A DNA stretch of 64,000 nucleotides from assembly GCA_002245135.1 (NCBI GenBank), contig NGBS01001179.1:1-64000 (forward strand), written 5' to 3'. Of the stretch, positions 5,805 to 38,132 are shown piece by piece (within the stretch, counting starts at the first letter, position 1; every line of letters begins with the position of its first letter). The notes beneath the pieces are model-generated. The model did not search any database, had not been told where the DNA came from, and worked only from the letters and a program-made list of their open reading frames with translations. A program made the translations under genes and the position numbers. Source of the DNA: Proteromonas lacertae (Eukaryota; Sar; Bigyra; Opalinata; Proteromonadidae).

Positions 5805-8800
5805 CTATTTAATTAATTTTACTTTCGGCAATTCTTTCTTTTCTTCTTCTGATATTCCTTCTAAGTTTATTCTCCCAATTGTTGAAAATGTTTCTAAAAA
5901 TGATTTTAATTCTATTTTATCTATATTTTCTTTGACTGTTATTGCTAATTCATCTAAATATTCAAACACATGTTTGTTTTCCTTCATTAATTTCAATTCT
6001 GTTATATCTAATTTGTTTCTTGATATATTTATCTTCTTTATTTTTTTATACTCTTTTAAACACTTAATTAATATTGTTATTCCTTTTTCACTTATTCCAG
6101 TATCTATTCAATAATAATATTTACAAAATACTTGATATATTTAAAGATGTTGGATTAGGACTTACAAATTTATCTATATATTTACAGATTATCTCTATTC
6201 CTTCATCTCCAATATCATTATTGTATATTGATATACATTCTACATCTTCTGGTAAGGAATCTGTTAATTCTTTTAATCCTCTACAGCTGATATGATTATT
6301 GGATAAATCAATTTCTCTATAACCAATCTGTTTAATCAATGAGATGTGAGAATCATTCAGATTCATATCTGTTTTATTAAAAATATAGATAATATACCTG
6401 AAAAATTATATCTTCTATTATCAGAATATTTTATTCCCTTTTTAATACAATAATCCAAATAATATTCCAATTCTTCATTTGTCCATGATGTACATTTCAT
6501 TTCTATAAATGGATATTCTTTATTTTCTAACGATTTTGAACAAATTGCTTTTAATACATTTATTTTGATATTACTTCCATTTAGATTCATTGTATCATAT
6601 CTTTTAAATAAATCTATTTTATTTGTTAATAATACTACACTTTCATCGTCTATTGACATACTACTCAAATTCATTTTATAAGGATGACAATCTATTAATA
6701 TCTGTAAACTGTTTAACAATAATTTAAAACCATTATTACAAATTGCGTTGTCTAATCAACAAAAATGAAACATAATATAAATATACTATGAATGTTTAAA
6801 TGCACAATGTCATCAATCACTTTAACATAATTCATCAAATATTCTATTCCATATGCATCTATGTTATTATCACTTATATCAAGCTTGATCTTTTCATGAA
6901 TATTCTTTAAACCATCTAATAAATATATTAATCCTATTGAAGATAATCCCATCTCTATTTAACATTATATAACATCACTATACTTGAACAATTAACGCTA
7001 TTATAATTCTTTAATAAATGTATATGTGGAGATAATATTTTCATTCCTTCATCTCCTATTTCATTTCCATTTAATCTAAGATAATAAAGATGTGGAAATG
7101 AAGATAAATTGTTAATCAGTATTTCAACACTTTTATATGTTAGTTTATTATCTAAAAAATATAAAAATATCAAATTATACTACTTAAATTTATCTCTTTT
7201 ACTTCTCCAAATTCATTTGATCTTAAAGAAATGAAGGATTTGAAAATATCATCATCAATTTCTAAATTACTCAAATTCACTTTTGTTGATATGATTAATT
7301 CTGGTATATTTTTATCAATCAAAATTCTCCAATTAAAATCAAATTCTATCTTTGAAATTGGAAATTTAGAGAATAAAGCTTGTAATCCTTTTGAATGGAT
7401 ATCATCGTTACGCTGCATATATATATTATTAATATTTGGATATTTATATAATTCTTCTGATAATAACAGCGTTGATTCATCATTTAATCTCATTTCTCTA
7501 AGATTCAATTCGTTATCTTTGTTGATTAATAAATGTAAATATGGAAGTAACAATTTGAAGCCTTTTAAGCCAATTGGATTACCTATTTTATAATAATAAA
7601 TACTTAAAGTACTTTCAATAAATATGTATTCCAGTTTCATCATTAATGGAATTGATTTAACAAATGTCTCAATAAAATGATTACTAAGGTTATTGTATAA
7701 AAAATAGATTATCTGTAGATTTGAAAATCGAGAAAAATAAGAACCAAATAATGACTGAAAATTAATTGGAATATAAAATCCATCAGAACCATCTAATGAT
7801 AAAAACTATTAGATATATACCAAAGACAAGATTTGTTGGATCTATTAACTTCACCACACTGAAGAAATAATTCATCCCTTCTTCACATACACACATGCAT
7901 TTTGAATTAATTGTCATCATTTTAACGAAAGTTGGAATTTTAATATTTAATATCTCTTTATCCAAATAACATTCCCTTCCTTCTTTACATTGATGATGAA
8001 TTTGATACTTCAGTTTATCTTTTATTGATTTATCTTTTTTGTATATTTTTATCATCAATAATATTGATAATACTCTTTTATTAGGTTTATTATTGTATGA
8101 TTCTATTAAATCATTTCTTATTCTTTCCCATTTATTACTTTGAACATAATATTCTGTCGGATACATTATTGGAAACATTATACTATCTTTGTCGTTGTTA
8201 AATAATAACTCTTTTCTTTCATCACATATCATCAATGAATCATTTTCATCTTTTAATATCTCATTCATTTTCGTCATTTCTTTTCTCAGCTCTTTTACAC
8301 TCATTCTATCTTCAGTTTTCACTTTTAACATTCTTTCTATCATTTCTTTCATCACTTCATCATATTTCACATCAAAAAGGTATTTGGATATGAGAATATT
8401 GTTTATGGTTTTAAACATATCATTATCTTCATTAAATGGTAATTTCTTACAAATCATTTCATATAATATACATCCAACTGACCAAATCACACTTCTCTCA
8501 TTACATTCATATCCATTCAGCTCTTCTGGGCTTTTGAAATTCACATCATACAATCTCATATCTTCATCTTTTCTCAATACATTCAAGAATAAATCACATA
8601 ACTTTATACTACTATCATCTATTATTACATTGGAACTCTTTAAACTTTCAACTACTAAATCATACTTATTCAACATCATTAAAATATCGCATATACTATA
8701 CATCATATAACAAATATCACCACTTGTTAAGGATCCACTATGGATTATCTCTTCTAAATCTCTATCATAATAGTATCTCTCTAATATCATCATTTTACTA

Positions 8801-9086
8801 CTTATTCGATGTACTTGTGATGGATAAGCGAAGCATGAACAACAATCTGACAAGAAACTGATTCTAGCACAAAATTTTAATATTTTCTTTTCTTTAATAT
8901 CACCAGTGTTGAAGATTTTTACAACATTTGTATTACTTTTTTGTTTTATTAACAATTCTTCCTCACTTTTACTCTTTTCTACTCTTTCTTTAACCTATTA
9001 CATAACAATGCAGTCACATATACTTCTACATTCAATTTATATTTCAAGATCTTTTCTATTTCACAATTTTGATAGAAATATGACAT
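5805..9086 (-). CDS. Pseudokinase-LRR protein A
   Basis: Multi-exon gene. Exon 1 starts MSYFYQNCEIEKILKYKLNV (ATG 9086-9084) and joins the kinase exon across a 29-nt phase-0 intron at ~8999-9027. The kinase-like domain (to ~8250) keeps a beta-3 Lys (VVKIF), the LK..N of the catalytic loop (ESLKSSNV) and SPEEL. It lacks the catalytic Asp, has CDL in place of DFG, and lacks the F-helix Asp (SVIWSVGC). A linker follows, then ribonuclease-inhibitor-type LRRs in exons near 7170-7643, 6955-7160, 6752-6950, 6363-6719, 6121-6366 and 5805-6110. Introns in the LRR part fall at the same Ser-Asn point, phase 1. No signal peptide or membrane span is seen, so it is probably cytosolic. Likely role: a sensor or scaffold rather than an active kinase (inference). 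Confidence 0.8.
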
Positions 9087-9350
9087 TTTTTAATAGATTC
9101 GTTTTGATTATTCTTGGGGAAACTTTGGTGCGAAAAATGATGATGTTTATTAAAACTAAATTCCAATTTAATCAACAACACAACAACCACTATAAAGACA
9201 CCCATAGTTTCACCTATTTATGATAAAAACAACAACAATAATAATAAACAGATAACAAATGAATTAATCAATAGTGCAACGCAGAAGGATCCTAAGACAG
9301 GTATAAAGAATATACCATTCAAAGCACCACAAGCAATATCGATTAACAAT

Positions 9351-9770
9351 ATGAGTTATAATCCAATCACTCAGATGTGGGAAGGAAATGAAGATGATGA
9401 AGAAATATTAGAATTTGATGAAATTATCAATGAAACTACTGGTAGTAACAAAAAGAAAAAGAAAAAAACAAAGAAAGAAAAGATTAATGATTTATCACCT
9501 TTTCACTTAACTCTAACAGAAGAAATAATCATCAAGAGAAGAGCTCGACAACATCTAGTAGACTTAAAATACCCTAAACATGGAGTAGAAGCTAGATTGA
9601 TAGCTAATACAGTGAAATCTAAAAGAATTTCTGAATCAACACCGACATGTCCTATTACTGTATCTAGACAGTATGATGCTCGTCCTGACTTGTTTATTAT
9701 TAGAGATATGGCTGTACAGAGAGTAGCTTTAGATAATTATAAAATGGAAGAGATGATGAGTAAAAAATGA
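9351..9770 (+). CDS. Small conserved-looking protein with an N-terminal WEGN motif
   Basis: The ATG at 9351 gives 139 aa: MSYNPITQMWEGNEDDEEIL, an acidic stretch, a Lys-rich stretch (KKKKKKTKKEK), then a helical basic C-terminus ending in TGA. The same frame is open upstream to ~9168 without an ATG and reads like coding (an Asn run, then TGIKNIPFKAPQAIS), so a further 5' exon is likely. N-P-x-T-x-x-W-E-G-N resembles the short N-terminal motif of the fungal Byr4/Bfa1 mitotic-exit regulators, but nothing else supports that. It is divergent from the pseudokinase-LRR gene that starts 264 bp to the left. Confidence 0.5.
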   Translation: MSYNPITQMWEGNEDDEEILEFDEIINETTGSNKKKKKKTKKEKINDLSPFHLTLTEEIIIKRRARQHLVDLKYPKHGVEARLIANTVKSKRISESTPTCPITVSRQYDARPDLFIIRDMAVQRVALDNYKMEEMMSKK

Positions 9771-9954
9771 TTATTATTAGTAAAATCTATTTTATATAAA
9801 CATATATATGTGTGATAATTTAACAAAATGTTCTTTATTTCATTCATTTATGTATTAGGGATCAAATATAAAAATCATAAATTCAGAAAATAACACTAAA
9901 AAATGAGGGGAAAAACATATAAATATTTCTAATATCCCTTTTTAATACTTATTC

Positions 9955-10690
9955 TTAATACTTAGATGGCATTTGTTGTGTAATACAATGAATATTACCA
10001 CCACCCAATAATATTTCTCTACTTTTCACACTCACTATCTTACGATCAGGAAAGATTTCTTGAAATTGTTTTCGTACTACTTCATCAGTTGCTACATCAA
10101 AGGCAGGTAAAACAATACCTTCATTAGCCATATAGAAGTTAATATAACTACCTGGTAATCTTCCATATTCTCTTGCTATCGTTCCATCTTCAGATATTAC
10201 ACCATTTGCTTCTTTATCTGTTCTTGTTAAAGTTGGATCTGGAATGGGGATTTTGTGGATTTTAATGGTTCTACCTTTAGCATCTGGGGTCATTGTTAAT
10301 ACTGCTTCCGCTTCACGTGAGATTCCATATTATGGATCTGATGGGTTATTCGTCCAAGCTAATGCAACTTCGGCTGGTCTAACAAAACAGCATATGTTGT
10401 CTACATGACCATTTGTATCAACATCTCCATATAGACCGTGTGGTAACCAGATTACTTTCGTTGCACCTGTGTATTCTTTGAGATATTGCTCGATTTGTTG
10501 TTTGTTCAGATCTGGATTACGATTTGGATTTAATAAACATTCTGCTGTTGTAATTAGTGTTCCTTCACCATCTACATGGATAGATCCTCCTTCTAGAATA
10601 AATGGAGCATCATAACGCTTGTAGCCAACTATATCACATATATGTGGTGCTACTGTTTCATCCTTTGAATAAGTAACTACAATTGTTACT
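9955..10690 (-). pseudogene. Agmatine deiminase, 5'-truncated with an in-frame TAA
   Basis: Agmatine deiminase hydrolyses agmatine to N-carbamoylputrescine on the way to putrescine. From ~10690 the minus strand reads about 240 residues of close family match: APFILEGGSIHVDGEGTL, AECLLNPNRNPDL, VIWLPHGLYGDVDTNGHVDN, YINFYMANEGIVLPAFD, and the active-site GGGNIHCITQQ with its Cys; the catalytic His of NGHVDN is present. The frame is interrupted once, by TAA at 10330-10332, at a position normally Gln (NPSDP-stop-YGIS). The N-terminal ~130-150 residues are missing and the sequence upstream is AT-rich noncoding. An intact reading frame apart from one stop suggests recent loss or a sequencing error, but the missing N-terminus argues for a pseudogene. 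Confidence 0.85.
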
Positions 10691-10870
10691 GTGATTTTAA
10701 TAATAGTTAATTTCTCAACATTTATCTCTTAAAAATAGAAATTTTAGAATTTGTATATTTATAACAATAAATATATGTTAAATGTAGTGATAGTTTTTTT
10801 AAGAATAAATGTATATAAACAATATATAATCAAAGTAGTAATAATAGTTTATATTTAAAAAAATATTTAT

Positions 10871-11206
10871 TTATTTATCCTTGTATTTTTGTACAATAAT
10901 GGATAAAATTGTTGGTATAATTACCTCTAACTTGTCAATATCCAGGGATCCTTGAAAATGTAGTATATAAGAAAATGATGGATATATCTCTATGGGTAAA
11001 ATGGATTTATATATTTTTTTAATCAAATCGTATGTGGTGTCATCCTCAACAAGCGTTTTGTCGATATAAATTCTTTTAATTCCATTATATTTCATACTTG
11101 CAATTCCATAACAGCTGGTAGTTGAAAATGGATGGAAATTTTGATGATCAAGAGTCTGTTCAATCCCATTGATGAATAACTTGCAGTGTATGTGATTATT
11201 TTTCAC
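10871..11206 (-). CDS. Hypothetical 111-aa protein
   Basis: Single-exon ORF from MKNNHIHCKLFINGIEQTLD to VQKYKDK. The predicted pattern is a beta hairpin, a further strand (GIKRIYIDKTL), two helices and a closing helix (IIPTILSIIVQ). The size and beta-rich start with C-terminal helix loosely recall proteasome-assembly chaperones, but I cannot support that. It lies between the agmatine deiminase remnant and the start of the 11.3-12.9 kb repeat. Confidence 0.4.
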   Translation of the reverse strand: MKNNHIHCKLFINGIEQTLDHQNFHPFSTTSCYGIASMKYNGIKRIYIDKTLVEDDTTYDLIKKIYKSILPIEIYPSFSYILHFQGSLDIDKLEVIIPTILSIIVQKYKDK

Positions 11207-11384
11207 ATAATCTCTTATAATTATTACAATAAAAAACTGTTCCTCAAATAAATCTAACGGTTGATCTAAATCAAATGGTTAAAACTTTATTAATACTTAA
11301 AACACAAATGGTTATTTTTATTGTTTATACTTTCTCTTTAATACTTTTTTTTTCAATTAAAACAAATTCATAAAATTATAAACT

Positions 11385-12758
11385 TTATAAATATTTTGAA
11401 TAAAAATAAATTAATAGATGAATTGATGTATGAATTTTTGAGTTCTCTCCAATGAAGTTAATAGTACAATCATCAAACACTTGTATGGATAAATTATATC
11501 TGTTTTTATTCATTTCTCCATTACAAATCTTTAATCTCTTAGAAGGACTTATTTGTATATTTCGTTTTATGCTGTCTGTTATCATATGATTGTTACTAAC
11601 TTTTATATTACTTGATATTATCGGTTGGATAGAATTACTTTCTGATAATTGATTAATTTGTTTGGGTAATATTTTTATGTTTTTTGATTTTTGTTTCTTT
11701 TCACTTGTTTTACTTTGATCGAGTTTATCCTGCTGGGGTTTAAATTCTGACATTATTAATGGAATTAATTCAGGATAATTATTTACATAAAATTGATATT
11801 CTATATGATTTCTTTTTTTATCCAAATCAGCTAAATCTAAATACATCTGTTTATCAATTGCCTTTAATTTGTTCCAGGATTTTTTAACACTTTTATTGAT
11901 TGCATTCTGGTCAATTAAATCAACATTACATTCTCTATTTAGCTCATACTCTTTATAATATTTTTCATAATGTTCAAATGCAGTTAATGATGGTGTTATG
12001 GTATTTTCTAGCTTATGTTTATACTTACAACAGTTTTAAATGTTTGAAATAAGAATAAAATCTTGAATAATGTTAATCTCAGTATAATGCAAAGTAAAAT
12101 AGTAATGAAATATGAAATGATCATTACTATTTGTAATTACATTATATGAACTATTCTGTTCATCAAATAACCTATTATTTCTAACAATAATTTGGACTTT
12201 CTATCAAAACCATTTGTTTTATTGATAATTAATGACCATATTTTCATTAAATCATCTGAAGGCTTTTTTCAATATTTCTGTAGGTAAAATAATATAAATT
12301 AGATTGTAATTCACAAACAGTATACTCATTATTTTGATTATGGACTATTTTACACACTTTACTTCCATCAGATAATAATATAGTGAAATTAATATCATCA
12401 TAATAGGATTTTACTAATTAGTATAAGAATTTAACAAATACATATTTGAATATATTCATCATAACTCAATTTTCCATCTGAAAATTTGTAACGAATTGAA
12501 TTGCTTGATATAAGTAAACTGTTAACTTGGACTTCCTTAATTAGAATAACAAACACTCCATTTTTACCCAATCCAACCGATTTTGATTTGTTAATGATTA
12601 TCTATAAAATAATATAACAATTAGAATGTTCATTATACTTGTTCTATATTAAAAATCAGACAATGATCTTCATTTGACTGTTTGGAGCTTAAATCGGTAT
12701 ACAATATTTGATACTCAACTGAATTATTAAGATTAAAGTTTAAAAACACTGAGTCCAT
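11385..12758 (-). CDS. HMG-box protein, multi-exon
   Basis: The start is MDSVFLNFNLNNSVEYQILY at 12758. Introns that restore frame include ~12602-12638 (37 nt, phase 0) and ~12411-12438 (28 nt). The third exon reads LKSYYDDINFTILLSDGSKV onward. The HMG box lies near 11800-12000: PSLTAFEHYEKYYKEYELNR leads in, then INKSVKKSWNKLKAIDKQMY and LADLDKKRNHIEYQFY, matching the P..L.AF...., W..L and Y..LA..DK.R spacing of HMG boxes, which bind and bend DNA. A basic Ser-rich tail follows. Frame is lost at an A6 run near 12266 in both copies of this locus, so there is an unresolved intron, a shared indel or a frameshift there. It is divergent from the BTB gene, with ~94 bp between starts. Confidence 0.6.
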
Positions 12759-12851
12759 AAGTGTAGAGCTTAGTTTAAGAAAAAAGAATTTTGATGGTAA
12801 TTTAGTCAATTTGACATTTAATTACATTTTCATATTTTTGTCTTATCTCGG
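12759..12851. promoter_or_regulatory. Short bidirectional promoter between the HMG-box and BTB genes
   Basis: Less than 100 bp separates the two divergent start codons (12758 minus, 12852/12860 plus). It must hold both promoters. It is AT-rich and I see no clear TATA or initiator consensus. The same spacer is duplicated at 3953-4066. Confidence 0.5.
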
Positions 12852-12859
12852 TTGTTTTC

Positions 12860-14667
12860 AATGATTATTAAAAGTGAAACATGCAAAAATGAAGGGTATA
12901 TATACATTATCGGCTGTAATTATGTTATTCATAGAATAATTCGAGAAGCTGTAAAATGCGGCTTTGGTGATTTGAGAGTGATAGTAGAAAATGAAGAAAT
13001 AAAAACATTTAAATTTATTCTCTATGTATGTAATGAAACATTCAGAAAATTATTTGATGATCCTTTCTTCGAAGAACCATTGAAGTTGTATGATGAGTGT
13101 AGTAAGGAAAGTTATTTGATGTTGGAAAAATATTATCAAGGTATAGAAATTGAGATAACTGAAAAGAATTGTGTAGATCTATTAGCTATCTGTGTGTGCT
13201 ATAATGAAAACAAGATTATTAGTGCATTAAATGATTATGTAATAAATCATTTAAATGAAAACATTGTTGTTGATTTATTAAGTAAAAAAGAGATATTAAG
13301 AAGTGAAAATTTGAAGGAATTGAAAGAAGAATTTGAATATTTCTTAAAGAATGAGAATTACAAAATAGTGAAAAATGAGTTATTAAATTACATATCCATT
13401 GACAATCTTGCGCAGTTATTTTCATTGGGAGTAATGTTTAATGGAAGTGAAGTTGAATTATTGAGATTATTGATTGGCTATTATAACCACAATTTAAACA
13501 ATTCAAAAGTAGAAGAAGAAATGAAGAGAATAATCGAGAGATGTAGTTTTGATCCAAAATTACAAAATGAGTTAAATGATGAAGAAAAGAAGGTATTAAA
13601 CAATTTAAACATCTCTCTTAATGTAAATGCAAGTGAAAAATATTCTATTCGATATTATTCTCTTCCAGAAGTAAAGAATGTGTATTTTTATGATTTCTTA
13701 ATGCATTATAATCCTGAAGAAGATATTCCAGAAATAATATTTAATAGTATATAATATTGTTGTAATTTCATATAGAATCTCACTTAGTGTTATTAAAGAG
13801 TGAAGATATTTCAAGTGATATTGATATTCTATTGAAAGAAGGTAATATAAGAATTATTATGTTAATTTTACAATTATATGATGGCTTATATATGAAATTT
13901 GATGCAGATAAATATTCTGTGATTTTAGATGTTATTCTTAATACTTATACAAACATTAATAATGAAGATAAACGAATGTTGTTGATGATGCAAATAAAAA
14001 AATTCATTACTGATGATGATGATGAAAAGAATGATGTAGTATTTGAAAAGGTGAAAGAAAAATGTGGAATAGAGTTGTTGTATAAGTTATTAAAAGATAT
14101 AAAGATCTTAGGTTATAAAAGATATTCATCATTATTGAAGTATATGCATAAATTTAGGTTAGATGATGCTGAGTGTAGATTATTAGATTCAACAGTGGAA
14201 GATGAAGAAACAAAGAAAAAGATAAAATGTATTGATATTTGTTAACACATTATTATATCATAGATCATAAATTAAAATCAATATCTTATTCTGATGATCG
14301 AAAAAATTATAATGGAGATTGTTGGTATTCTTCTTGTTACCATGAATTAAACTGTAAGTTTATAATTGGAGATAAAATTGATTTAAAACCAATAATTGAT
14401 AATATTATTGATGTTGAGAGTATAACAATTGAACCTGGTATAATAACTAATTCTATATATTTATACTTCATTTTAGAACTTCCCTCTGGATTATCGTTTG
14501 ATCAAAACACTGGAATTGTAAGCGGAAAAGCTAGTGAATGCATTACTAAGAAGTATACAATAGCAATTAAGAATGTGCATGGTTCAAAAAAAGTAAAAAT
14601 TGACCTTACTATCAAAAGAAAAAATGAAGATAATAAATCTAGTGCAAAAAGGTATAGATTTTTTTAA
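12860..14667 (+). CDS. BTB-domain protein with a C-terminal putative-Ig (He_PIG-like) domain
   Basis: Four exons joined by introns at ~12897-12935 (39 nt), ~13746-13774 (29 nt, phase 1) and ~14229-14263 (35 nt, phase 1). The BTB fold is near residues 15-120: FGDLRVIVENEEIKTFKFIL, CNETFRKLF, a mobile helix ending YYQGIEIEITEKN, then the BACK-like helices. The long helical middle resembles BTB proteins expanded in many protists. The last ~80 residues (LPSGLSFDQNTGIVSGKAS) match the He_PIG putative-Ig motif. BTB proteins usually act as dimers or CUL3 adaptors, so a ubiquitin-ligase adaptor role is possible. If translation starts at 12852 instead, two residues are added. Confidence 0.75.
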
Positions 14668-15244
14668 ATAATACAACAATTACCCTGTTTTAACTGAAAT
14701 ATTTTCATAAATTTAACCATATTTTATTAGTATCATCATAACTCATAACCATCACTTTATATACTTCAACATATTTTTATGCAGCATAAATGCACTGTAA
14801 TTTAGACATGCCTTTGATTTTTAAAGAGTTTAATAGAAATATATTCGTTTCACATTTTTTAATTTTCAAATTATGTGTTACACAAAGTACTTAAAATTTA
14901 TTCAGTTATTGAACAATGATCAATTTATAAGAAGAAAACAATTTGTTATGATTGAGAACATAAATAAACTGTATATATGAAATACCTAAACAAATACTTG
15001 TTATGTGGTTATTGAATATAATTCTGATATAAAAAATATCATGATATGATAAATAATAGCGCATTCATATGTATATATACTAATTGCAGATTTCAACCTT
15101 TGCTAGTTGATATGAGCTGAATATCAATCAATATAATAATTACAATGTGTATATCAAAAATATAATATTAATCAATCTATAACTTGATGTTAATCACTGT
15201 AATTAATGAAAGAAAGAAGGAAAATAAAATCAATATTCTTATAA
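14668..15244. other. Intergenic, AT-rich
   Basis: I find no open frame, RNA gene or repeat shared with the rest of the window here. Confidence 0.4.
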
Positions 15245-15760: not shown

Positions 15761-16052
15761 AATAATGATATAATTTCTTATTCTAGTAATTTGTTGTGTT
15801 GTTCATACTGAAATCTTGTTTGTATAAACATATAAAAAAGAAAATCTCTTAATACACAAATAAAAATGCTTAAGCTATATGATTACATTATAATTATTGA
15901 TTTAATGCTTTAATTTGTAATATAATAAAACAGAAATCAATTAAAAGTATAATAGTGAGTTATATGTTGTAATATAGAAATTCATAACAAATTACAATAT
16001 AAATAAATATAATTAATAAAATACATTAATTTATAAACCTACTATTCCTTTC
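15761..16052. other. Intergenic, AT-rich
   Basis: Nothing recognisable. Confidence 0.35.
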
Positions 16053-16300: not shown

Positions 16301-16423
16301 TAATTTTTAGTTTTGTTTTGGGTCATGAATATATACAAATGATTATATGGGAAAAGCTTATTAGTCAAAGAAACAAGCATTTTTCTCTTTTGAGAGAAAT
16401 ATAAAACGACTCTAATTTCAGAA

Positions 16424-19400
16424 ATGTCATTTTTTTCTCTAAATCGTGATATAGACCAATTATTTGAATATAAAAAACCAAAATTGGAAGTATTTGGTGT
16501 ATTTATATGAAATAGATAAAAGAAAAGGTCGTAAAGAGTATTAATGAAATAGATTTGGTAGTACAACATCATGATAAAATTAGATGTATGAAAATTCTCA
16601 ATGTACAGGATATAAAAGAAAAGAAGGTATTGAAGTTCTTAGAAAATAACTCCTTAATCTCTGATTGCTGTTTATACTTTGTTTACCCTTCCAAAATGAA
16701 TAGGTACAGTGAATATATTATACTATCAAGAAAATATTATTTTAGAGATTTAGAAGAGATGATTCACAATAAATGCATATCAAGTGATGATATTTGTAGT
16801 ATAATATGCTATATATGCGATATTTTGATAAAATTGAATGAATTTAATTTGCTAGTGAATAATCTGAAGAGTAGTAACATAATATATGAAGATAATAATC
16901 ACCTAAAGTTATGTGATTTATGTTTAAATGTTTTGAGAAAAGTAGAAGGGATAAGATTATATGATATATGCTTTACAAGTCCAGAAGAGTTAAATGGCTT
17001 AGAATGTGATAAAAGAAGTGTGATTTGGTCAATTGGTTGTATATTATTTGAAATGATAAACAAGAAATTACCATTTAATGAAGATGATAATATCTATAAG
17101 ACTAAAGAAAAAATATTAAGATTCAAATGCTGCTATCATAAAAACCATGATAATATAATGAAAATAATGATAGAAAAAATGTTAAAAGTGAAAAATGAAG
17201 ATAGATTGAGTTTAAAAGAGTTGAAAAAAGAAATGATAAAAATAAGTGAAATATTAAAAGATGAGAATAGGATTATAATGATATGCAAAGAAAGAAAAGA
17301 AATGTTATACAATAATGACGATGCAATTATCACGTTTCCAATAATATATCCATCAGAATATTATCTAAATAGTGATAAATGTGTGGAAATTTGTAATAGA
17401 TTGATAAAATCATACAATTATAAAGCTAATGAAAAAATACTCTCAATATTGTTGATGATGAAAATATACGAAGATAATAAATCAATAGAAGATAAACTGA
17501 AATTTCATATTCATCATAGATGTAAAGATAATAATGAGTGTTATTTAGATAAAATGATATTTGATATTAAAAGCAATTTTAATGATTCTACAATTATTGA
17601 AATTTCTTCAACACATATTTGTTTTTGTGTAGAAAGTATAAATTATTTGTTCAGATTATTGAAATTAATCAATCCCATAAAACTCAAATTTAGTATAAGT
17701 CTAACAAATTATATATTTATAGAAGTTTTATATGAATGTGGTATTGCAATCAAACATCAATCATATTTTGGATCATGTTTTTCTCAATTATTAAATCTAC
17801 AACGATTAGATTTACATTCATGCAACCTTTCTTCTGATTTCATTGAGCTATTTATAGGGTCAATATCATTGATGAAATTAGAATATGTTAATCTATCATG
17901 TATTTAATACTATTTTTATATATTGATATGAAATAGACAATCCAATTGGTCCAAAAGGCTTCAAATTATTACTATCATATTTACACCTGTTAATAAACAA
18001 TAAGAATGAATTGAATCTTAGAGAAATGAACTTAAATGATGAATCAATGATATTATTATCAGAAGAATTATCCAAATATCCAAATATCAAGATACTAGAT
18101 ATATGTTGGAATAACAACGTTCATTCAAAAGGATTAAAATCTTTATTCTCCAAAATTCATATATCAAAAATAAGATATAATTTTAATAGAAAGAATAAAG
18201 AAATACTGATTGATAAAGATATTGGAGAAATAATGAAAATCATTAAATATGGTGAATTAAATGTGAGTGGTTGTGAAATAGATGATAAATTTTTCAAATC
18301 ATTCATTTCATTAAGATCAAATGAATTTGGAGAAATAAAAAAGTTAGATTTGAGTAGTATAATTTTACTATATTTTATTATTTAGATAATAGACTAACAT
18401 ACAAGAGCATAGAAATACTGATAAACAATTTATCTTCATTTACAAATCTTAAAAAACTTCATTTGAATGGGAATGAAATAGGAGATTTAGGAATGAAATT
18501 ATTATCTCCATATTTATATTTATTACAAACAGATTATTATGTATTGAATTGTTCAAGTATAATAATTATATTATACAATGTGCAATAGAAATGGGATTAT
18601 ATTCGAGTGGATTGAAATATTTATTGGATGGATCAAGGACTGGTTATCAAAATCTCACATATGATATAAGTGATAATAATATTGGTTCAGATGGAATAGA
18701 ATACTTGATGAATTATGTGAAAGAGAACAGTAATATAAAACAATTAGTCATTCATAGTATTAATATTTATGTGATATATATTTAATAGATAATCCAATCA
18801 ATAATAATGGATTTAAGCTATTGCTAAACAATCTACATATATTAATAGATTGTCTTAAAATAAATTTGAGTAACATAACAATAGATAATGAAAGTGTTAT
18901 ACTATTAACAGATAAATTATATTCACTTGAAGAATGTTATACAATAAATTTAAATGGAAATAACATCAAAATGAATGAATTGAAAACAATTTGTACAAAT
19001 TCATTTGCAATTGGTTTATATCAATACAATCCATTTATAGAAATGAAATGTTTATCATGGACAAATGAAGAATTAGAGTATTATTTGAATTATTGTATTA
19101 AAAAGAGTAAAAATGGACGTGAAAGAAAATATGATTTTTCAAGTATAATTATAAATTGTAAATGAAATAGACTTAAATCTTAATGATTATCATATTTCAC
19201 TAATTAAACAGATTGATTACACGAGACTTGATTTATCGAATAATCACATTACTTCTAAAGGATTAAAAGAATTAGTAGATTCTTTACCAAAATATGTAGA
19301 ATATATTTCAATAAATAGAAATCCTATCAGAGATGAAGGAGTAGAGATAATCTGTAAACATTTAGCTAAGTTTTATACTAAATATACACTATCATTAAAT

Positions 19401-19765
19401 CTTTCAAGTACTTTTTATGAATATAATATATTTGAATAGACATTGGAATGAGTGGAAAAGGACTGAAAATGTTAATAGAACAATTAAAAGATTATAAACC
19501 ATTAAGAAAGATTAACCTATCTGGAAATGAATTGGATAAAAGAGAAATGAGATTAATGAAAGAAAATAAAGTAGTATTTGATTGTTTAGATGAATTATCA
19601 ATAACATTTAAAGAAAATATAGATAAAACAGAATTAAAATCATTTTTAGAAACATTTTTGATGATTGAAATAATAGAATTAGATGGAATTTCAAAAGAAG
19701 AAAAGATAGAACTATCAAAAGAATTTCATAACGTATGTAAATGTAAAATGCTTATGGAATATTAA
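16424..19765 (+). CDS. Pseudokinase-LRR protein C
   Basis: Paralogue of the gene at 5805-9086. Exon 1 (MSFFSLNRDIDQLFEYKKPK) joins across a 26-nt intron at 16490-16515. The kinase-like domain keeps the beta-3 Lys (CMKIL) but has VNNLKSSN where HRDLKxxN belongs, LCDLCLN for DFG, and SVIWSIGC without the F-helix Asp. A 30-nt intron at ~17695-17724 precedes the LRR part. LRR introns near 17899, 18357, 18557, 18752, 19147 and 19409 all cut after Ser in phase 1 (TCAA|GTAT pattern). LRR exons read LDLSNNRLTYKSIEILINNL, NPIGPKGFKLLL, RLDLSNNHITSKGLKEL and so on. All exons seem intact. The protein is about 900 aa, without a signal peptide or TM span. Confidence 0.82.
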
Positions 19766-27860: not shown

Positions 27861-29267
27861 ATGAGAAGACAAAAATCACATAATAAATCCAAAAAAAATT
27901 CTAAACCATATGAAGATAATGTTAATGTATTGAATCTAGCTAGTTCAAACTTAACAGATGATTCAATGGTTTTATTATTGGATAATTTGAGTAAATGTGA
28001 ACAAAGCCCTACAAGAATAGATATTTATGAAAGTAAAGACTTATTAATTGATAAGAGAATCACAAAATTAATAAAATACATAAAAAATGATTGGAATGGG
28101 TTGAATTTGAATGGTTTAGGAATGGGTGATTCATTTTTCAATCAATTCATACAGTTGAGATTAGCAGAGTTTTCTGAAATAAAGAATTTGTTTCTAAGTG
28201 GTATAATTTATTATACAATAATATGTAGATAATAAATTAACGCATATCAGCATTCAGATGCTGCTTAACAATATATCAACATTTTTAGATATAGAAAATA
28301 TTTGGTTAGATGGGAATGAAATAGGAGATGAAGGAATTAAACTATTATCTGAAGATATAAAGTATTTAAAATTTTATGTTTTAATGATGAAATTAATTGT
28401 TCAAGTATTGTTCTTATCCTATAATAATCAATAGAAATGGGATTATCTATAAATGGATTAAAATACTTGTTGGAAGGTATAAAGAATATGAATACAAAGA
28501 TCAAATTACTCGATATTAGTCATAATGAAATTAAATCAGATGGAATAAAGTATCTTATGAATTATGTGAAAGAGAATAATAACATTAAAAAGTTATTGAT
28601 TCATGGTATATTTATTTATTTGTTATTGAAATAGATAATCCAATTGGTAATGAAGGATTAAAATTGTTGAAGAATAATTTGAATATGCAAAACATTGAAG
28701 GATCTTTATTTTTAGATAATATTTCAATAAATGATGAAAGTATACCACTATTAATAAATGAGGTTCAGTCTATGAGGTATTGTAGAAATATATTTATAAG
28801 AAATAACAATATTACTATAAATGGGTTAAAGTTTATTTGTTCTAAGTCATATGAAGATAATAACTATCCATTCATACATTTGAAGAATAATTTATGGGAA
28901 AATAATGAGTTGGTAGAGTATTTTACTTACTGTATTAAGAAGAGAAGATTGAATGATATATACAATATCAATTATTATGACTTTTCAAGTATAGAACACT
29001 AATTACATTTGAATAGGTATGAATATCAATGATTCTCATATCTCCTTAATTAAGCAAATTGACTATCATATACTGGATTTATCAAATAACAGAATTACAG
29101 AAAAAGGATTTAAAGAATTAATTTCTTCTTTACCAAAACAAGTTAGACAAATAAATATTTATAATAATCTAATTCCTGAAGAGATTACAAAATGTATTTT
29201 TTATGTGGAATATACAAAAAAAGGAGATATGGATTTTCAAGATGATGTTTTTAATTACAATAGATGA
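27861..29267 (+). CDS. LRR protein E, kinase-less member of the pseudokinase-LRR family
   Basis: It starts MRRQKSHNKSKKNSKPYEDN, directly followed by LRRs with no kinase-like domain. The same exon units occur in the same order as in the larger genes: SxLTDDSMVLLL, NKLTHISIQMLLNNIS, MGLSINGLKYLLEGI, NPIGNEGLKLLKNNL and DSHISLIKQIDYHILDLSNN. Introns near 28200, 28405, 28605 and 28990 sit at the same Ser-Asn point in phase 1. One base seems out of register near 28370-28400 before the third LRR intron. The last LRR exon diverges and ends early (NYNR). It is either a family member that lost its kinase exons or one built from LRR exons alone. Confidence 0.65.
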
Positions 29268-29353
29268 TTATTGTTATAAAAGCTTATTATGTAATTGTTT
29301 TTTGTGATAAACAATAAAATATGAAAAGAAATAATAAATGAAAGTATATAAAT

Positions 29354-30698: not shown

Positions 30699-30811
30699 GA
30701 GTTAATTAATGAAGAATTTTTGATTTATTCTTTTTGGTTAGTCCAATTTTTTGATAAACCCATTTTGAGAAAAACATAAAAAACAATAAAACAGATATAA
30801 TATCATTAATT

Positions 30812-31452
30812 TTATGGGAAAAACTTCTTAAGTTCTTCGGGTACAACAATATCATTTATTCTAAGTGCTGTTACATCTCTTCTAAATCCTACTTTTCTAT
30901 GATAACTCTTTCTTCTCTTCATTTTAAAAGATACACCTTTTTCTTCTCTTACATGTTGTTCACAAGTTGTATTTACTTGTGCTAGTGGTATTTTTGGCCT
31001 TCCAATTGCTGTGTATTCTTGTGAACCGATCATTAACACATCTGGGATAATTAATGGCTTATTTATATCACAATCTTGTCTATCACATATTATCATATCA
31101 TCCTATAAGAAATATAAATTATAAAATGTTTTATTTATTTATACTTTTTGAACTTTATATTGAGTTCCAGAAAAATCTATTATTGCAAATATATCTTTTG
31201 ATGGTTCAATATTAGGTATTTTGTGTTGAAAAATTGCATATGGTTTATCATCAGTTTCAACATACACATACTTTTCATCTTCTGCAACTATTTTTTCTGG
31301 ATGCTACTTTTACATTCTAATTGAATAAAGCAATTATATTATACTGGTGGAAGGACGGAGGGATATTTGCTTAAATTAGAAAAACAACATCTATTCTGAT
31401 TTATAAATGCTTTATATAGTGTTGGAGACCTTGATAAAAATGTTTTTAACAT
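30812..31452 (-). CDS. MRPL21: Mitochondrial ribosomal protein bL21m
   Basis: Three exons. Exon 1 is a classic presequence, MLKTFLSRSPTLYKAFINQN, Arg/Lys-bearing, without acids. A 41-nt intron leads to FAIIDFSGTQYKVQ, the L21 start, and a ~43-nt intron to DVLMIGSQEYTAIGRP, the conserved central strand. The basic KMKRRKSYHRKVGFRRDVTA follows, then LRINDI. bL21 sits in the large ribosomal subunit. Its presence means mitochondria here translate their own mRNAs. The stop is TAA at 30812. Confidence 0.9.
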
Positions 31453-31577
31453 TATAAATTATCTATAAAACGAGAAAAACAAAATTAAAATTTGATGATT
31501 ATGAAACGACTATTATTATTTTTATTGTTCCAAAAAATAAATATGATATAACAACAGATCTTATTAAATTACAATTA

Positions 31578-32368
31578 TTAAATTCTACCGTTTCTCTCTT
31601 TATAGCCATCCTTCAACATATAAGCAGGACTATATGTACCATCATCTTTCAATAATTCAGAATTGGGTAGCGTATTAGATATACCACCAAGTGAAGTATA
31701 TCCTTTGTCATATAAACTACAATAAGGTATTTGAAAGAGTAAAATAAATTCCCAAATTTCATTATAACTATAATCTAATAAAGGTAAAACTCTAAAAAAT
31801 ATAGGCCATCCTGGACTACTAGGAGTTATAACAGACAAATCGCTAGAATAAGGATCAGTTCGTCTATTACCCATTATAACTGCTTTTGTGTGATAATCTT
31901 TTATAACTACTTCCATACCCTCTTTAATCGCACAATTGTATCTATGTAACTTCACACAGAAACTAGTGGATATAATTGATAAATATACAGTTTTTCTATT
32001 CCACTGACATAGTGAAGCACTTCTGGGAAGTTATCACCTCTATCGAAGAAAATGAAGACTATTTTCTCTGTAATAATTTCTTGAAGATTGGTATTAGATA
32101 ATTCTGGGTGTCTACTAAGGTATTTTGATATGGCAGTGAAGAATAAATAAAGGGATACGATTGACTCTTTACCGCCGTTTAATGTGACAGCAAAACTATC
32201 TATACCTATAATCTCTATAGCACTAATCAGATTGTGTAGTGAATCGTTTATTCGCTTAGATAGATTCGATTCTGTAGTTTGATAGTTAGAAATATTTTCT
32301 ATGGTGGATATAAACGTTTCATAATCACATGTAGGAGTCCTTGGAGACGAAATGGGCGAATTCATTAT
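31578..32368 (-). CDS. FAD synthase (FMN adenylyltransferase), PAPS-reductase-like fold
   Basis: Transfers AMP from ATP to FMN to make FAD. A 26-nt intron near 31974-31999 joins GIEKLFCVKLHRYNCAIKEG, fusing two open segments. The PP-loop reads TLNGGKES (family: S-x-N-G-G-K-D-S, so Asp is Glu). The flavin/ATP-site block GNRRTDPYSSDLSVITPSSP is close to the GIRxTDP block of eukaryotic FAD synthases. LPLLDYSYNEIWEFILLFQI, YCSLYDKGYTSLG and a C-terminal PAYMLKDGYKERNGR complete the domain. The best start is MNSPISSPRTPTC (~32365), though the frame is open to 32464. No N-terminal MoCF domain is seen, as in fungal Fad1. Confidence 0.88.
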
Positions 32369-32738
32369 GGCTGTGAAATGAAAACCAGCATAAAAATGAT
32401 ATGGTTCTTTTGAAACGAATCTATTTAAATAAATTGTCGTAACTGACAATAAAAGTATTATCATTCCATATTTGCATTTTGTGTTGCTCTATTTATTTTA
32501 AAGTAATATATATATTGTTAAAGCTGATACAATAAAGATACCAAGGAAATCTGTTAAGTATGATAGCTTTTCTTTAATCATTTTATTAAATATGTCAATA
32601 TTCTAATACTCTATCTGTATTATTATGTTCTTTCATAAACAAATTCAAAATTAGGCTTGAATTCTGACTCAAGCCTGATTAGTTTTTTTGAAAATAACAG
32701 TAAATTAGGTTTTATTTATATTATTTATTCTATAATTT

Positions 32739-34319
32739 ATGTCCTATTCTCGTATTTTTGTCGTTGATATTTTTTTATTTAGAAAATCGACCATCTAGTC
32801 CTATTGACACTTGTCCAGATGCTTTCTACAGTATAACATCCCCAACTGTTTCTAATTTATCATTTTCAGACGATATAAGTGAAAATTATCCAGAATATTC
32901 ACGAAAATATCCAAATTCCTCGCCAAACACTAGATTATTTGCTAATATGACAATAAAATCATTTCCAAAGAATATATCAAACAATGTGGACTATCGTGAT
33001 GCCAGTAGAATAAGATGGCCAGGACCTCCAGCATATCTTGACGTTGATGAAGATGCCATATGCTCAGAATGCTTTTAAAAGTATCCATCCAATCCAATAT
33101 TCTCTTCACTCAAATTCAAACACTTACAATGTCTTATATTATCATTAAAAAGTAATAAATATAACATCAATTCATTTGATGATAATTATGATACTCCACT
33201 TCATGTTGCTTGTAAGTTAAACAACATTCATTATGTAGAATTATTACTAAATTATGGTGCAAATGCTAATGTATTAAATAAACGAAATGAAACCCCTTTA
33301 TTTATATCAGTTTCACTGAATTCAATAGATATTATGAGATTACTATTTTCTTACACCGATAATGACTTATTAAATACTCAAGAAAATATTACAGGTTATA
33401 CTATATTGCATATTGCAAGTAAATTAGGTAACTTAGACTGTATAAAGATGTTATTATCCAGAAATGAAGAGAATAGTAATAATAATAATAATAATGAAAT
33501 AATTAATATAAATAGTCCAAATTTCAATGGTGCAACTGCTGTTCATTTGTGTAAAAATTTAGATATTTTATTATATCTAATCTCTATGAATGCTGATATA
33601 AATATAAAAGATAATTATAATCGTTCAGTTGCATTTTATCATTGTATTTATAATCATGATGATATAATTGAATATTTATTAATGAATTATCCTGATTTTG
33701 TATTTGATGTTGATTATAGAAAAGACACACTGCTTCATGCAGCTGTAAACAATAAAAGTTATGAAGTATTAGTCATATTATTACATTATCCATTTATTAA
33801 TAATAATGTTAATATAAAGAATGAATATGGTTATACTCCACTTGATATTCTACCAAATGATGTAACTACAAATTCGAGATTATATAAACTATTGAAATCT
33901 TATGATGCAAAGACAAGTTATGAAATAGAAAATGAAAATGAGAATAATAATATACCTAGTAATTGGGTTAGATATATTGATCCTGATACTAAATATCCAT
34001 ATTATTATAATGTTATAACTAAAGAAAGCCAATGGGAAATCCCAAGTTCATCTTTAACTTCAGAATATATGAATGATGAGATATTTAATAATGATGAAGA
34101 ATTTATAAGAGAATTAAAATTAAGGTGTATACCAAGGAAATTAAGTCGTGATTATGAACTGTTAGCAAAACAATATAAATATGAAAAACCATATCGATTA
34201 AACAATGTTCTAAGTAAAAGAAACTTTAATAAAAGTGGTTTATGTTTATTATGTAATGTCAATCAACCAGATGTATGTTATTTACCCATGTGAACATTGC
34301 TGTGTTTGTCTTGTATATA

Positions 34320-34354
<35 letters not shown>

Positions 34355-34643
34355 TGTTATGAATAGAAATGTATAAAAATGAATGGAATTGGTCCAAATA
34401 AAGATTATGATAGATGTTCTTGTATTTATATACTTATTATTTTTGAATTTATTTTTAATAGTATGTAATGATAAAATATTAAAAATTTGTTCGTTTGATG
34501 TTGCTGCTAATATTGTATTATGTTATCATGAAGATAATGCAATTTCTGAACAATTCAAAGCAGAGTTCAAGTATTCTGGGAATAAATTGAAACAAAATAA
34601 AAGACCATCTCAATATCAACATTTTTCATTTCGTTATACTTAA
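32739..34643 (+). CDS. Ankyrin-WW-RING protein, probable E3 ligase (one in-frame TAA, one frameshift)
   Basis: Exon 1 MSYSQ joins NRPSSPIDTCP across a ~30-nt intron. Ankyrin repeats run from ~33180 (YDTPLHVACKLNNIHYVELL, then ETPLFISV, YTILHIASKLGNL and YTPLDILP). A WW domain follows near 33960 (SNWVRYIDPDTKYPYYYNVI, then ESQWEIP). The C-terminus is a C3HC4 RING: CLLC, then CYLPC-EHCCVC, and after an intron with a TTA run LKCIKMNG and CSLC. The frame breaks twice. TAA at 33076-33078 lies between the N-terminus and the ankyrins. One C too many in TTACCCATG near 34290 shifts the RING; with two C the RING is perfect. It is either a young pseudogene or a gene with sequence errors. Confidence 0.72.
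34322..34355 (+). repeat. (TTA)n microsatellite inside the RING intron
   Basis: About eleven TTA units in the ~55-nt intron that splits the RING domain. Confidence 0.85.
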
Positions 34644-34951
34644 TTAATATAAATATTGACATAATTTATGATTCTTGTTGTTGATTGGCTGATAAATATA
34701 TTAAGCAGATATTATATATTAACTACCATAGAGCAAACAATATATACCATTTTCTTATCTGTATGAAGAGTTTTCACCATATTCAATCAAAATTATATAT
34801 ATATTGATTATTGAAATAGTTATGGTTGTTTTTTGCAGGTAATACTACAAGTTTTAAAATAATACAAGTGCAAAAAACAAAATAATGAATTTAATAATTA
34901 GAACAATATGCTGTTAATTATTGATTATTCACAATTGCCTATCTTATATTC
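34644..34951. other. Convergent intergenic spacer
   Basis: AT-rich, nothing recognised. Confidence 0.35.
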
Positions 34952-37900
34952 TTATATTTTATTTAATAGATAATTGATCTGTTCTAAATATGATGCTCTA
35001 AATAACTTTAATTCTCTTTTACCCAATTCATTCCTTGATAGATCTACCTCTCTTACTATGTTACAATCTTTTATTCTTTCACATAAGTAATTTAATCCAC
35101 TTTCAGTCATTCCAATATCTATTCACATAACATATTTATTTTTATACTTGATAAATTTATATAACCATATTCAACAAAGTTTTCTAAATGTTTACAAATT
35201 ATTTCTATTCCTTCATCTCCTATTTCATTATTGAATATGTAAATATATCTGTATGAACTATTTGCTACACTATCTACTAACTCTTTTAACCCTTTTGAAG
35301 TGATTCTATTGTTTGATATATCAAGATTATAAAAACTAATCATCTTTACTAATGATATATGAGAATCATCCAAATTCAAATCTATTTCATTAAATATTCT
35401 ATTATATATACTTGAAAAATCATAATAAGAATAATTAAACCTCTTCTTTTCTTTTTAATACAATAACCCAAATAATATTCCAATTCTTCATTTGTCCATG
35501 ATGAATTCTTCATTTCTATAAATGGATATTCTGCTTTTTCTAATGATTTTTCACAAATTGATTTTAATCCATTCATTCTAATAACATTTTCTTTCAGATT
35601 TATTCTGGAGCATTCTCCAATTGAATCAATTTTCTTTGTTAATTGCATTACACTTTCATCATCAATTGAAATATTATTCAAATCCATTTGACCATACATT
35701 ATTATATTCAAATTGTTTAATAGCAATAATCTAAATCCATTTTTACCAATTGGATTATCTATTAAACAAATATGTAATAAAATACTTATACTGTGAATGA
35801 AGAACTTTTCAATATTATTATTCTTTTTCATATAATTCATCAAATATTCTATTCCATCTGAATTTATATTATTCCCACTTATATCAAGGTTTATCTTTCC
35901 ATCAATGCATTCTAATCTATCTAATATATATTTCAATCCCACTGTAGATAATCCAATATCTATTCACTATAAAATGATTTTTATACTTGAGCAACGTAGT
36001 ATATTGTTTTCATCTATTAATAAATGAAGGTGTGGAGATAAAATTTTCATTCCTAAATCTCCAATATCATTTCCTTCTATGTAAAGACATTTTACATTTG
36101 AAAATGAAGATAAGTTGTTAATGAATATTTCTATACCTTTATTTGTCAATATATTGTCTAAATGATATAGCAATGCCATATTATACATCTCAAATCCAAT
36201 ACTTTCATAATACCCAATTTATTTGGTCTAAATGATATTAATAATTCGAAAATGTCATCATCAACATTGCAATTATTCAAATGTTCAATAAAACCACAAT
36301 TCTCAATCAACTTCTTTTTTAATATTGGAATATTTTTATCATTTAACAATTCTTTTCTTCCATTACAATCTATGAAAGTTTTTGAAACTGGAAATTTGGA
36401 GAATAGAGATTTAAATCCTTTTGATTGAATATCATTATTTTTTCTAATGTCTATTATGTTAATATTTGGATATTTATTCAATTCTTTTGATAACAAGATC
36501 ATTGATTCATCATCTAAATTCATTTTTCTTAGTATCATTTCACCATCTTTGTTAATTAACAAATGTAAATATGGAATTAACAGCTTGAATCCTTTTCCAC
36601 CAATTGGATTATCTATAACAAAATAATATATTAAAAATATAAATCATACTTTTAAGATTTATATATTTCAATTTCATCATTGGGATACACTTGACAAATG
36701 ATTCAATAAAAGCATAATCAATATTGCATGAATGTATATCTAAATAGTTAAGATTTGATAATTGTGAAAAATGTAATGCAAATATCGACTGATAATCAGT
36801 TGTAAATTTAATTTTATCTATAAAAGCAATAACTATAAAGAATTATACCAAACTGAAGCTTTGTTGGATTGATATATCTCAATATTTTGAAGAAATAATT
36901 CATTCCTTCTTCATAAAAATAAATACATTTTGAATTGACAATGATTAAATCTCTTTCATTATATTCATCAATATCAATATTAAATATCATTCTATCAAAA
37001 TAACACTTTTTACTGTGAAATTTTAATATATTCTTTATTGATACATCTTTCTTATAAAGTTTCATAATCAATAACATCGATAGTATTCTTTCATCAGGTT
37101 TAACATTATAACATTTTATCATTTTGTTTCGCATATCTATTTAAAATCATTATTATTACAATTGATATTATATAATACTTTTATAATAATAATTATTTTG
37201 GAGATAACACTCTGATGGATAGATTATTGGAAGAGTCAATATATTACAATAATCATTATTGAACAATAATTTTTTTCTTTCTTTACATATCATTAAATAA
37301 TTATTCTCATCTCTTAATAATTCACTCATTTTTACCAACACTTTTCTCAACTCTTTTAAACTAATTCTATCTTCACTTTGCACTTTTAACATTCTTTCTA
37401 TCATCTCTTTCATCATTTTATCACATTTCATATTGAATCTGTATTTACATCTCAGAATATTATTCATTGTTTTATTCAGATTATCATCTTCATTGAATGG
37501 TAATTTCTTAAACATCATTTCATATAATATACACCCAATTGACCAAATCACACTTTTTTCATTACATTCTAATCCATCCAATTCTTCTGGGCTTTTAAAG
37601 CAAATGCCATACACTCTCGTCTCTTCTTCTTTTCTCAAACTGTTTAAGAATAAATCACATAGTATTATTTCTCTATTATTTTCATATATTATGTTACTAA
37701 TCTTTAAATTGCTTATCACTAAATCATATTCATTCAAAAGCATTAATTCATCACAGATGCCACATATCATAAAACAAACATCTCTAATTGAAATCGATTT
37801 TCTTGTTATTATCTCTTCAAAATCTGTATTATAACAGTATCTTTCTAATAATATTATATTACTCCCGTATATGTCCATATGTAAAGGATAAAAAAAGGAT

Positions 37901-38132
37901 AGACAGAATTCTGATAATAATGAGTTATTCTCTTGGAATTTCAATATTTTTTTCTCTTTTATCCCATCAATATTTAGGATTTTCACTATTTTTACACTAT
38001 TCTGATATTGTACTACTAAATCTATTTCTGAATTACTTTTTTCTACCCTTTCTCTTATCTATTCATAATTATAATTGTATATACTTTCGTAAAATAAGTT
38101 TTGCATTTTAATATACCTTCGATATTTCTCAT
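34952..38132 (-). CDS. Pseudokinase-LRR protein D
   Basis: Third full family member. Exon 1 MRNIEGILKCKTYFTK (38132) joins IRERVEKSNSEIDLVVQ by a 26-nt intron near 38059-38084. Pseudokinase marks: IVKIL (beta-3 Lys kept), ISNLKISN (no catalytic Asp), LCDLFLN for DFG, SVIWSIGC. An extra 42-nt intron near 37139-37180, absent from paralogues A and C, splits YYYKN from MRNKMIKCYN. LRR exons follow at ~36158-36600, 35967-36180, 35760-35945, 35405-35760, 35150-35380 and a last exon starting IGMTESGLNYLCERIKDCNI, ending TAA at 34952. LRR introns keep the Ser-Asn phase-1 position. The frame appears intact throughout. Confidence 0.8.

Follow-up and report, generated by a model that had tools for sequence, protein, structure and literature searches.

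Uniform intron phase and a conserved exon layout in a family of predicted pseudokinase–LRR genes of Proteromonas lacertae

Introduction

The stretch of DNA analyzed here (hereafter, the window) comprises the first 64,000 nucleotides (nt) of contig NGBS01001179.1 from the opalinate protist Proteromonas lacertae (assembly GCA_002245135.1) and carries four copies, genes A, C, D, and E, of a family seen only in this genome so far, whose typical product would combine an inactive kinase-like domain with following leucine-rich repeats (LRRs) of the ribonuclease inhibitor (RI) type. Judging from sequence comparisons, the family likely descends from an ancestral gene with phase 1 introns in its LRR part, in which exons e4-e5-e6 and e7-e8-e9 would represent duplicate blocks. 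This layout would have been retained since then in every examined copy, losses aside, and recent change would proceed by tandem duplication, by ectopic exchange that ends inside coding sequence and gives rise to chimeric genes, and by in-frame losses of repeats. We infer that the uniform phase is a relic of the ancestral exon-block duplication and not the main engine of present diversity. Single-phase LRR exon families described elsewhere (Tetrahymena and brown algae) were read as evidence of exon shuffling. In the copies examined, the Proteromonas family has a complete phase pattern yet a fixed layout, with breakpoints read mostly in exons and about 385 places in one genome, which suggests that a symmetric-phase signature records the construction of a gene and need not tell how the gene varies now. 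The combination of a pseudokinase with LRRs at such copy number also makes the family a candidate for protist recognition or self/non-self systems.

Models of the four genes (Table 1) were built by hand from the sequence, exons being numbered e1 to e9 with e2 as the kinase exon. Further members were searched for in the 50.2-Mb, 1181-contig assembly containing the window, whose genes are eukaryotic. The best match to a Prp17 query had 46% identity, so that the collection searched yielded no close relative. A gene finder trained on the hand-model introns and on the coding sequences of A and C was tried at four penalty settings; at one of them it reproduced exactly the eight introns of A and of C, and this setting was chosen for that reason. 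Retrained on family models, it placed two extra introns in C and thus tends to over-predict, so the hand model was retained for this gene.

Intron Phase and Splice Context

The preliminary description of the window, made from the sequence alone, had assigned all LRR introns it could place to phase 1, right after the Ser of an LxLSxN motif. In the hand models of A and C, the introns are 26–37 nt long, the first being in phase 0 and the remaining seven in phase 1, and those of the LRR part indeed split the codon after the Ser-equivalent of LxLS. The phase was borne out by a junction scan without restriction to any one phase, which covered 49 loci (54 minus five repeats, other near-identical loci being kept) and 238 LRR exon pairs: introns were placed for 230 pairs, and all 230 are in phase 1. 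At the kinase/LRR junction, 37 of 42 pairs were placed, 36 in phase 1 and one in phase 2. The splice context proposed earlier did not extend beyond a minority of sites, since TCAA/GTAT is found at 74 of the 230 introns (in the window, at two of six LRR introns of A and two of six of C) and a next exon starting with A[CT]AAT at only 88. Contexts are specific to each site, with AGTA at e4/e5 and CATA at e6/e7. Likewise, the suggested exon-per-repeat logic holds as far as symmetric 1-1 exons are concerned and fails for an intron at every repeat, as exons comprise about two to five repeats and several LxLSxN points lack an intron.

The sites themselves are widely shared. Among 31 non-identical full-length models (median amino-acid identity 56%), the phase 0 site is common to 28 and six phase 1 sites to 27–30 models; the kinase/LRR site lies in a part of the alignment rich in gaps, where it is distributed over several columns. 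A clean pattern 0,1,1,... with 7–9 introns is seen in 22 of the 31. As a background, 139 introns were collected with the same gene finder from non-family genes of the window and seven kinase loci; their median length is 32 nt, 115 start with GTAT, and phases 0, 1, and 2 are represented by 64, 43, and 32 introns. Against this background, short GTAT...TAG introns are ordinary in the genome, and the uniform phase 1 is not. Phase 1 in seven of seven family introns (A/C) compared with 43 of 139 exceeds chance, keeping in mind that family introns are partly copies of one another and thus not independent.

Origin of the LRR Part

Comparison of exon profiles gave reciprocal best pairs e4-e7 (scores 95/93), e5-e8 (62/60), and e6-e9 (39/38). 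Based on this pairing, the profiles indicate that an ancestral block of three exons, e4-e5-e6, was duplicated to yield e7-e8-e9. The copies are not strictly congruent: relative to homologous sequence, the e7/e8 intron lies one repeat earlier than e4/e5, so that e5 aligns to residues 24–79 of e8, which means that introns have also shifted, disappeared, or newly arisen at corresponding LxLS points. Inner LRR exons range from 141 to 609 nt, mostly 165–426 nt, in eleven models with eight introns.

The same offset is what speaks for another origin of the uniform phase, namely, that introns were inserted independently at LxLS, or kept there, because the coding motif resembles a splice site, the phase simply following the codon. 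The displacement of e7/e8 requires that introns moved, appeared, or vanished, and the generality of GTAT donors in the background set would suit such an origin. We nevertheless regard it as improbable, given that splice contexts differ from site to site and that duplication of the module accounts for the other shared sites without new insertions.

Present Layout of the Family

The family as a whole is large, in agreement with the expanding multi-copy family that the window had suggested. A degenerate 33-base motif, allowing at most two mismatches, hits 385 places in the assembly, and the reversed control hits none. Probably some of these places represent a single gene present on two contigs; others may be damaged copies, and a small number could belong to other kinases. 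Similarity searches gave 89 matches for C as a query (45 scored of 2489 candidates), 152 for exon 7 (150 scored of 739), and 122 for the A kinase (122 scored of 1320), none of the latter scoring below 335 bits. Many matches form pairs of equal score on different contigs (e.g., C402/C919 and C352/C777), implying that the assembly may partly hold both haplotypes. Tandem arrangement is exemplified by contig C652 (loci L039, L040, and L012), where A-type exon 7 matches follow each other at about 6,475 bp (10879, 17355, and 23828). The same contig contains a copy of C that is 97–100% identical in blocks and has its exons broken into pieces in different frames.

Layout was surveyed by exon profiles in 46 loci out of roughly 385 places. 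Eight repeats were left out, and the near-identical pairs C/L012, A/L039, L013/L019, and L042/L047 were retained; not counted were the fragment behind L039 and matches that lie 5′ of the kinase exon and are part of neighboring genes. Exons follow the order e2 to e9 in all 46 loci, a duplicated exon is found in none, and all eight exons are present in 35. Thus exon number and order do not vary between these paralogues in the way of an exon-shuffled family. End exons are missing in seven loci: gene E, which is truncated, L021, L028, L029, L041, and L058, which are devoid of 3′ exons, and L038, which lacks them only because the sequence stretch ends. Inner exons are missing in four loci, and inspection by eye revealed no clean intron-to-intron loss of an exon among them. 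L025 possesses a hybrid exon that passes from e5-like to e8-like sequence within the GNEIGDEG stretch common to both; one repeat is gone from within e6 of L055; in L036, a deletion runs from within e5 into intron 5, so that most of e5 is gone and the reading frame is kept owing to phase 1 on both sides; and L052 is a decayed copy.

These data bear directly on the idea that the LRR exons are interchangeable and that diversity arises mainly from their shuffling through introns. The 1-1 symmetry itself, the ancient three-exon duplication, and the in-frame state of L036 despite its loss are all compatible with it, and old exon swaps may have occurred in the history of the family. Collinearity of all 46 loci without any duplicated exon speaks against it as a description of the present state, as do the breakpoints read above and in the chimeric genes and the nucleotide linkage data considered below, and we hold it to be unlikely. 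Of the initial expectation that symmetric exons are gained, lost, or swapped as units, the symmetry and a past block duplication thus stand, and a role as the main present process is not supported.

Chimeric Genes and Similarity Patches

Two pairs of loci demonstrate where recent exchanges end. L022 and L026 share about 3.5 kb, mostly at about 95–100% identity with a dip of about 300 nt to 0.69–0.84. The shared stretch spans the upstream sequence, stops about 500–740 nt into exon 2, and then gives way to the level of paralogues; amino-acid identity by sixths of exon 2 amounts to 0.96, 0.96, 0.79, 0.71, 0.62, and 0.59. No near-identical match that could serve as a donor of the divergent bodies was found among the candidates scored (40 of 563 for L022 and 40 of 581 for L026), the best near-whole-body matches being 76% and 74% and shorter pieces reaching 81% and 76%, respectively. 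Behind their unlike 3′ halves, both loci have an 84-base stretch of 100% identity (L022 4945–5028 and L026 4666–4749), which may be a repetitive element or mark the distal limit of an exchange. Alleles with swapped bodies were also considered for this pair and rejected, the downstream flanks being unlike apart from these 84 nt. Upstream of each chimera lies a gene with a weak match to the family kinase profile (L022 665–896, 28 bits; L026 443–896, 33 bits), which perhaps represents a second, divergent kinase family.

In the second pair, L021 and L038, 97.9% identity extends over positions 1018–2310 and ends about 810 nt into exon 2, becoming patchy beyond: nucleotide identity is 0.85 in e4, 0.93 in e5, and 0.79 in e6 against medians of 0.73–0.75. 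Both pairs look like ectopic exchanges or duplications with most of their ends in coding sequence. Breakpoints were read inside exons on at least one side, which speaks against shuffling through introns.

Tests of Exon Independence

Per-exon identities are nearly uncorrelated across paralogues. This was initially a candidate argument for shuffling and was dropped, as split halves show hardly any tree signal even within exons. Uncorrected, halves of the same exon correlate with a mean r of 0.14 and those of different exons with 0.04 or less; with per-gene effects removed, the same-exon value falls to 0.016 (null standard deviation 0.018), hardly above that for different exons. The exception is exon 2, with r of 0.16 between its halves, and the first kinase half correlates with e3+e4 at r 0.09 (p 0.04). 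Pairwise identity of the kinase exon is 0.565 with a standard deviation of 0.031 compared with a binomial 0.025, e4, e6, and e9 being somewhat wider. Paralogues are thus near-equidistant, which makes the comparison of exon trees almost powerless. Linkage between nucleotide positions drops to background level beyond about 24 nt and is equal within and between exons, so that the excess within exons expected from shuffling is absent from the nucleotide analysis. With bias removed, synonymous linkage displays a within-exon excess in some distance bins and the reverse in others, no significance being computed.

Synonymous sites are unsaturated, with codon identity of 0.72–0.77 against an expected 0.53–0.62, and the flat pattern of identities can therefore be ascribed either to a burst of copying or to continual conversion. 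The second option implies that conversion in short tracts, acting across the whole family, holds the copies at equal distances and wipes out the tree. It would explain the flat pairwise identities, the residual tree signal near zero outside the kinase halves, the unsaturated synonymous sites, and patches of at least 92% identity over 80–170 nt between otherwise distant genes. An equally flat pattern results from a duplication burst, no clear decay with distance is seen in synonymous linkage, and patches in conserved stretches may be a matter of chance; we therefore consider pervasive conversion somewhat unlikely.

The preferred history, that of a frozen layout with exchange inside coding sequence, has several observations to contend with. 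The surveyed loci are a fraction of all places, include four near-identical pairs, and were chosen by similarity to A and C, so that odd layouts could be missed; five loci without 3′ exons were excluded from the reading of breakpoints. Intron positions are not perfectly uniform: the 31 models contain 255 introns, of which 24 occur in a single model, and at one column a phase 2 intron is seen in three models, all of which may be errors of the gene finder. The e6-e9 pairing is only a little better than e6-e8 (39 versus 36). The e5 patch of L021/L038 begins approximately in intron 4 and reaches the first part of e6, which is about e5 with its introns, and there are groups of genes with high similarity in one exon (nucleotide identity 0.84–0.90 in e5 or 0.84–0.86 in e9, with 0.62–0.83 in the other exons; where e5 reaches 0.90, the remaining exons have 0.70–0.78). 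Both favor shuffling of exons. The averaged excess of the e5 groups, which were picked post hoc, spans from inside e4 through both introns into e6. Amino-acid linkage with bias removed is slightly higher within exons at 60–150 and 400–1200 nt, no significance being computed, and such small excesses in some bins would also suit shuffling. Finally, entropy is 1.18–1.45 in the LRR exons and 1.30 in the kinase exon; variability of the LRR part thus does not exceed that of the kinase, which does not favor a receptor that combines constant signaling with a variable sensor.

Predicted Protein

A Pfam scan of A and C detected a kinase domain and LRR_6 repeats above the cut-off, all hits belonging to kinase and LRR families and none to NACHT, NB-ARC, ROC, or COR. 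The best PDB matches of the LRR part are ribonuclease inhibitor chains (E 2.2e-12), and the repeats are of RI type, having 28–29 residues and the consensus LxxLxLxxNxLxxxGxxxLxxxL; exon e5 of A and C encodes 56–57 residues with two repeats. Kinase motifs were read in an alignment of 31 members. The Asp of HRD is replaced in 30 of them (Asn in 27, Ser in two, and Thr in one) and retained in one; DFG keeps its Asp in all 31 and its Gly in none; the Glu of APE is retained in all 31. At the VAIK position, in a region that aligns poorly, the most frequent residues (listed for 27 of 31 members) do not include Lys. The pattern of HRD Asp, DFG Gly, and VAIK Lys leads to the prediction of a pseudokinase. 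A search of 5.8 billion proteins, in which 7994 candidates were scored, yielded no homologue with an E value of 0.001 or less, and inspection of family proteins by eye gave no obvious signal peptide.

Entropy by repeat register peaks before the beta strand (positions 28 and 1–3), as judged from nine regular-expression matches, one of them out of register. The ratio of nonsynonymous to synonymous substitution rates (dN/dS) is 0.36, 0.46, and 0.73 in three close pairs, two further pairs differing by eight and two changes. Structure prediction of exon 2 from the three window sequences had a mean predicted local distance difference test score (pLDDT) of 32. It is possible, and suggested here tentatively, that the LRRs bind ligands or partners, with the pseudokinase serving as a scaffold or switch. 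Unlikely in our opinion, though worth stating, is a germline-diversified recognition repertoire of a protist, in which several hundred pseudokinase-LRR genes, not known from other lineages, would reassort their 5′ (pseudokinase) and 3′ (LRR) parts by recombination within coding sequence, the frozen frame tolerating exon-sized losses.

Comparison With Known Systems

Receptor kinases with LRRs and NLRs of plants resemble the Proteromonas family in forming large LRR families with tandem copies and ectopic exchange and differ from it in domain order, LRR class, and an active kinase. In the titles and abstract openings searched, with few subscription journals covered, no pseudokinase-LRR family of such kind is described.

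The likeness to vertebrate NLR and ribonuclease inhibitor exons, which had been noticed at the outset, is supported: e5 and e6 of A, C, and D are 168–171 nt long, hold two repeats each, and have their border in the strand. LRR exons of NLRP3 are 171 bp long and consist of two RI-type repeats with a fixed border in the strand (PMC6642158), which is the nearest match in exon form. Vertebrate NLRP and ribonuclease inhibitor genes share with the Proteromonas family the 28–29-residue repeats, the strand border, and the frame-preserving exons (PMC6642158); the Proteromonas family differs by its pseudokinase, by the lack of NACHT in the Pfam scan, and by introns of about 30 nt. Nor is the length strict, as opposed to exactly 171 in NLRP3: in the eleven models with eight introns, e5 takes 156–180 nt, e6 141–198 nt, and most of the remaining LRR exons exceed these lengths.

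Outside animals, the closest precedents found for LRR exons of a single phase are those of Tetrahymena and brown algae. LRR genes of Tetrahymena are built from 1 to 51 phase 2 exons of 90 bp per gene, with scrambled exon trees (PMC6564038). Similarity lies in a protist with many LRR genes, a single phase of LRR introns, and ectopic recombination, in contrast to phase 1, mixed exon sizes, and fixed number and order in the copies examined here. Brown algal ROCO genes, proposed to encode immune receptors, combine a ROC-COR domain with shuffled phase 2 exons of 72 bp, one repeat each (PMC11378527). They are alike as an LRR family with single-phase LRR exons, and neither 72-bp exons, phase 2, nor ROC-COR characterizes the Proteromonas family.

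Genes of the Window

Table 1. Features of the pseudokinase-LRR family in the window
Feature	Position	Strand	Description	Basis
Gene A	5805..9086	-	pseudokinase + LRR, 9 exons, 8 introns, phases 0,1,1,1,1,1,1,1, intact 1014-aa (amino-acid) frame	hand model; identical introns from gene finder at chosen setting
Gene C	16424..19765	+	pseudokinase + LRR, 9 exons, 8 introns, phases 0,1,1,1,1,1,1,1, intact 1031-aa frame, type example	hand model, gene finder, Pfam Pkinase + LRR_6 above cut-off
Gene D	34952..38150	-	A/C layout + extra intron in linker (37137-37178); unless other donor is used, frame is broken near 35412-35758	hand model
Gene E	27861..29267	+	without exons 1-3 (kinase) and detectable exon 9; begins inside exon 4; frame broken	hand model, exon profiles
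Stray exon 2 (kinase) fragment, A type	4100..4369	-	open frame; similar fragment behind A copy in L039	
C exon 2	16516..17692	+	predicted pseudokinase and linker, phase 0 to 1	hand model, Pfam, motif alignment
C exon 3	17723..17899	+	177 nt, 1-1	hand model
C LRR module 1	17937..18756	+	exons 4 (420 nt), 5 (171 nt), 6 (168 nt), two introns	hand model; profile pairing
C LRR module 2	18789..19765	+	exons 7 (354 nt), 8 (237 nt), 9 (last), two introns	hand model; profile pairing
C intron 1	16490..16515	+	26 nt, phase 0	hand model
C intron 2	17693..17722	+	30 nt, phase 1, kinase/LRR junction	hand model
C intron 3	17900..17936	+	37 nt, phase 1	hand model
C intron 4	18357..18385	+	29 nt, phase 1	hand model
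C intron 5	18557..18588	+	32 nt, phase 1	hand model
C intron 6	18757..18788	+	32 nt, phase 1	hand model
C intron 7	19143..19170	+	28 nt, phase 1	hand model
C intron 8	19408..19439	+	32 nt, phase 1	hand model

Gene D differs from the preliminary description in its start, which is read at 38150; the Met at 38132 lies farther downstream. In D, one exon has 347 nt versus 354 in A and C, and one of E has 176 nt versus 168–171 in A, C, and D; on account of these lengths, both genes are either frame-disrupted or affected by sequence errors. In the broken-frame region of D, the gene finder places an intron of 59 nt. Gene E, judged from its sequence, is probably a truncated copy; it has an ATG of its own upstream of the truncated exon 4, which would give a kinase-less form.

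Among neighboring genes, the one at 12861–14667 has a BTB-like start, and its end resembles what is presumably a putative Ig (He_PIG) motif. A large predicted gene at 38869–42109, receptor-like by eye, has several hydrophobic segments and an N-terminal part that resembles a ligand-binding region. At 60283–63999, an open coiled-coil-like frame of 1,239 residues, with no predicted intron, runs off the end of the window.

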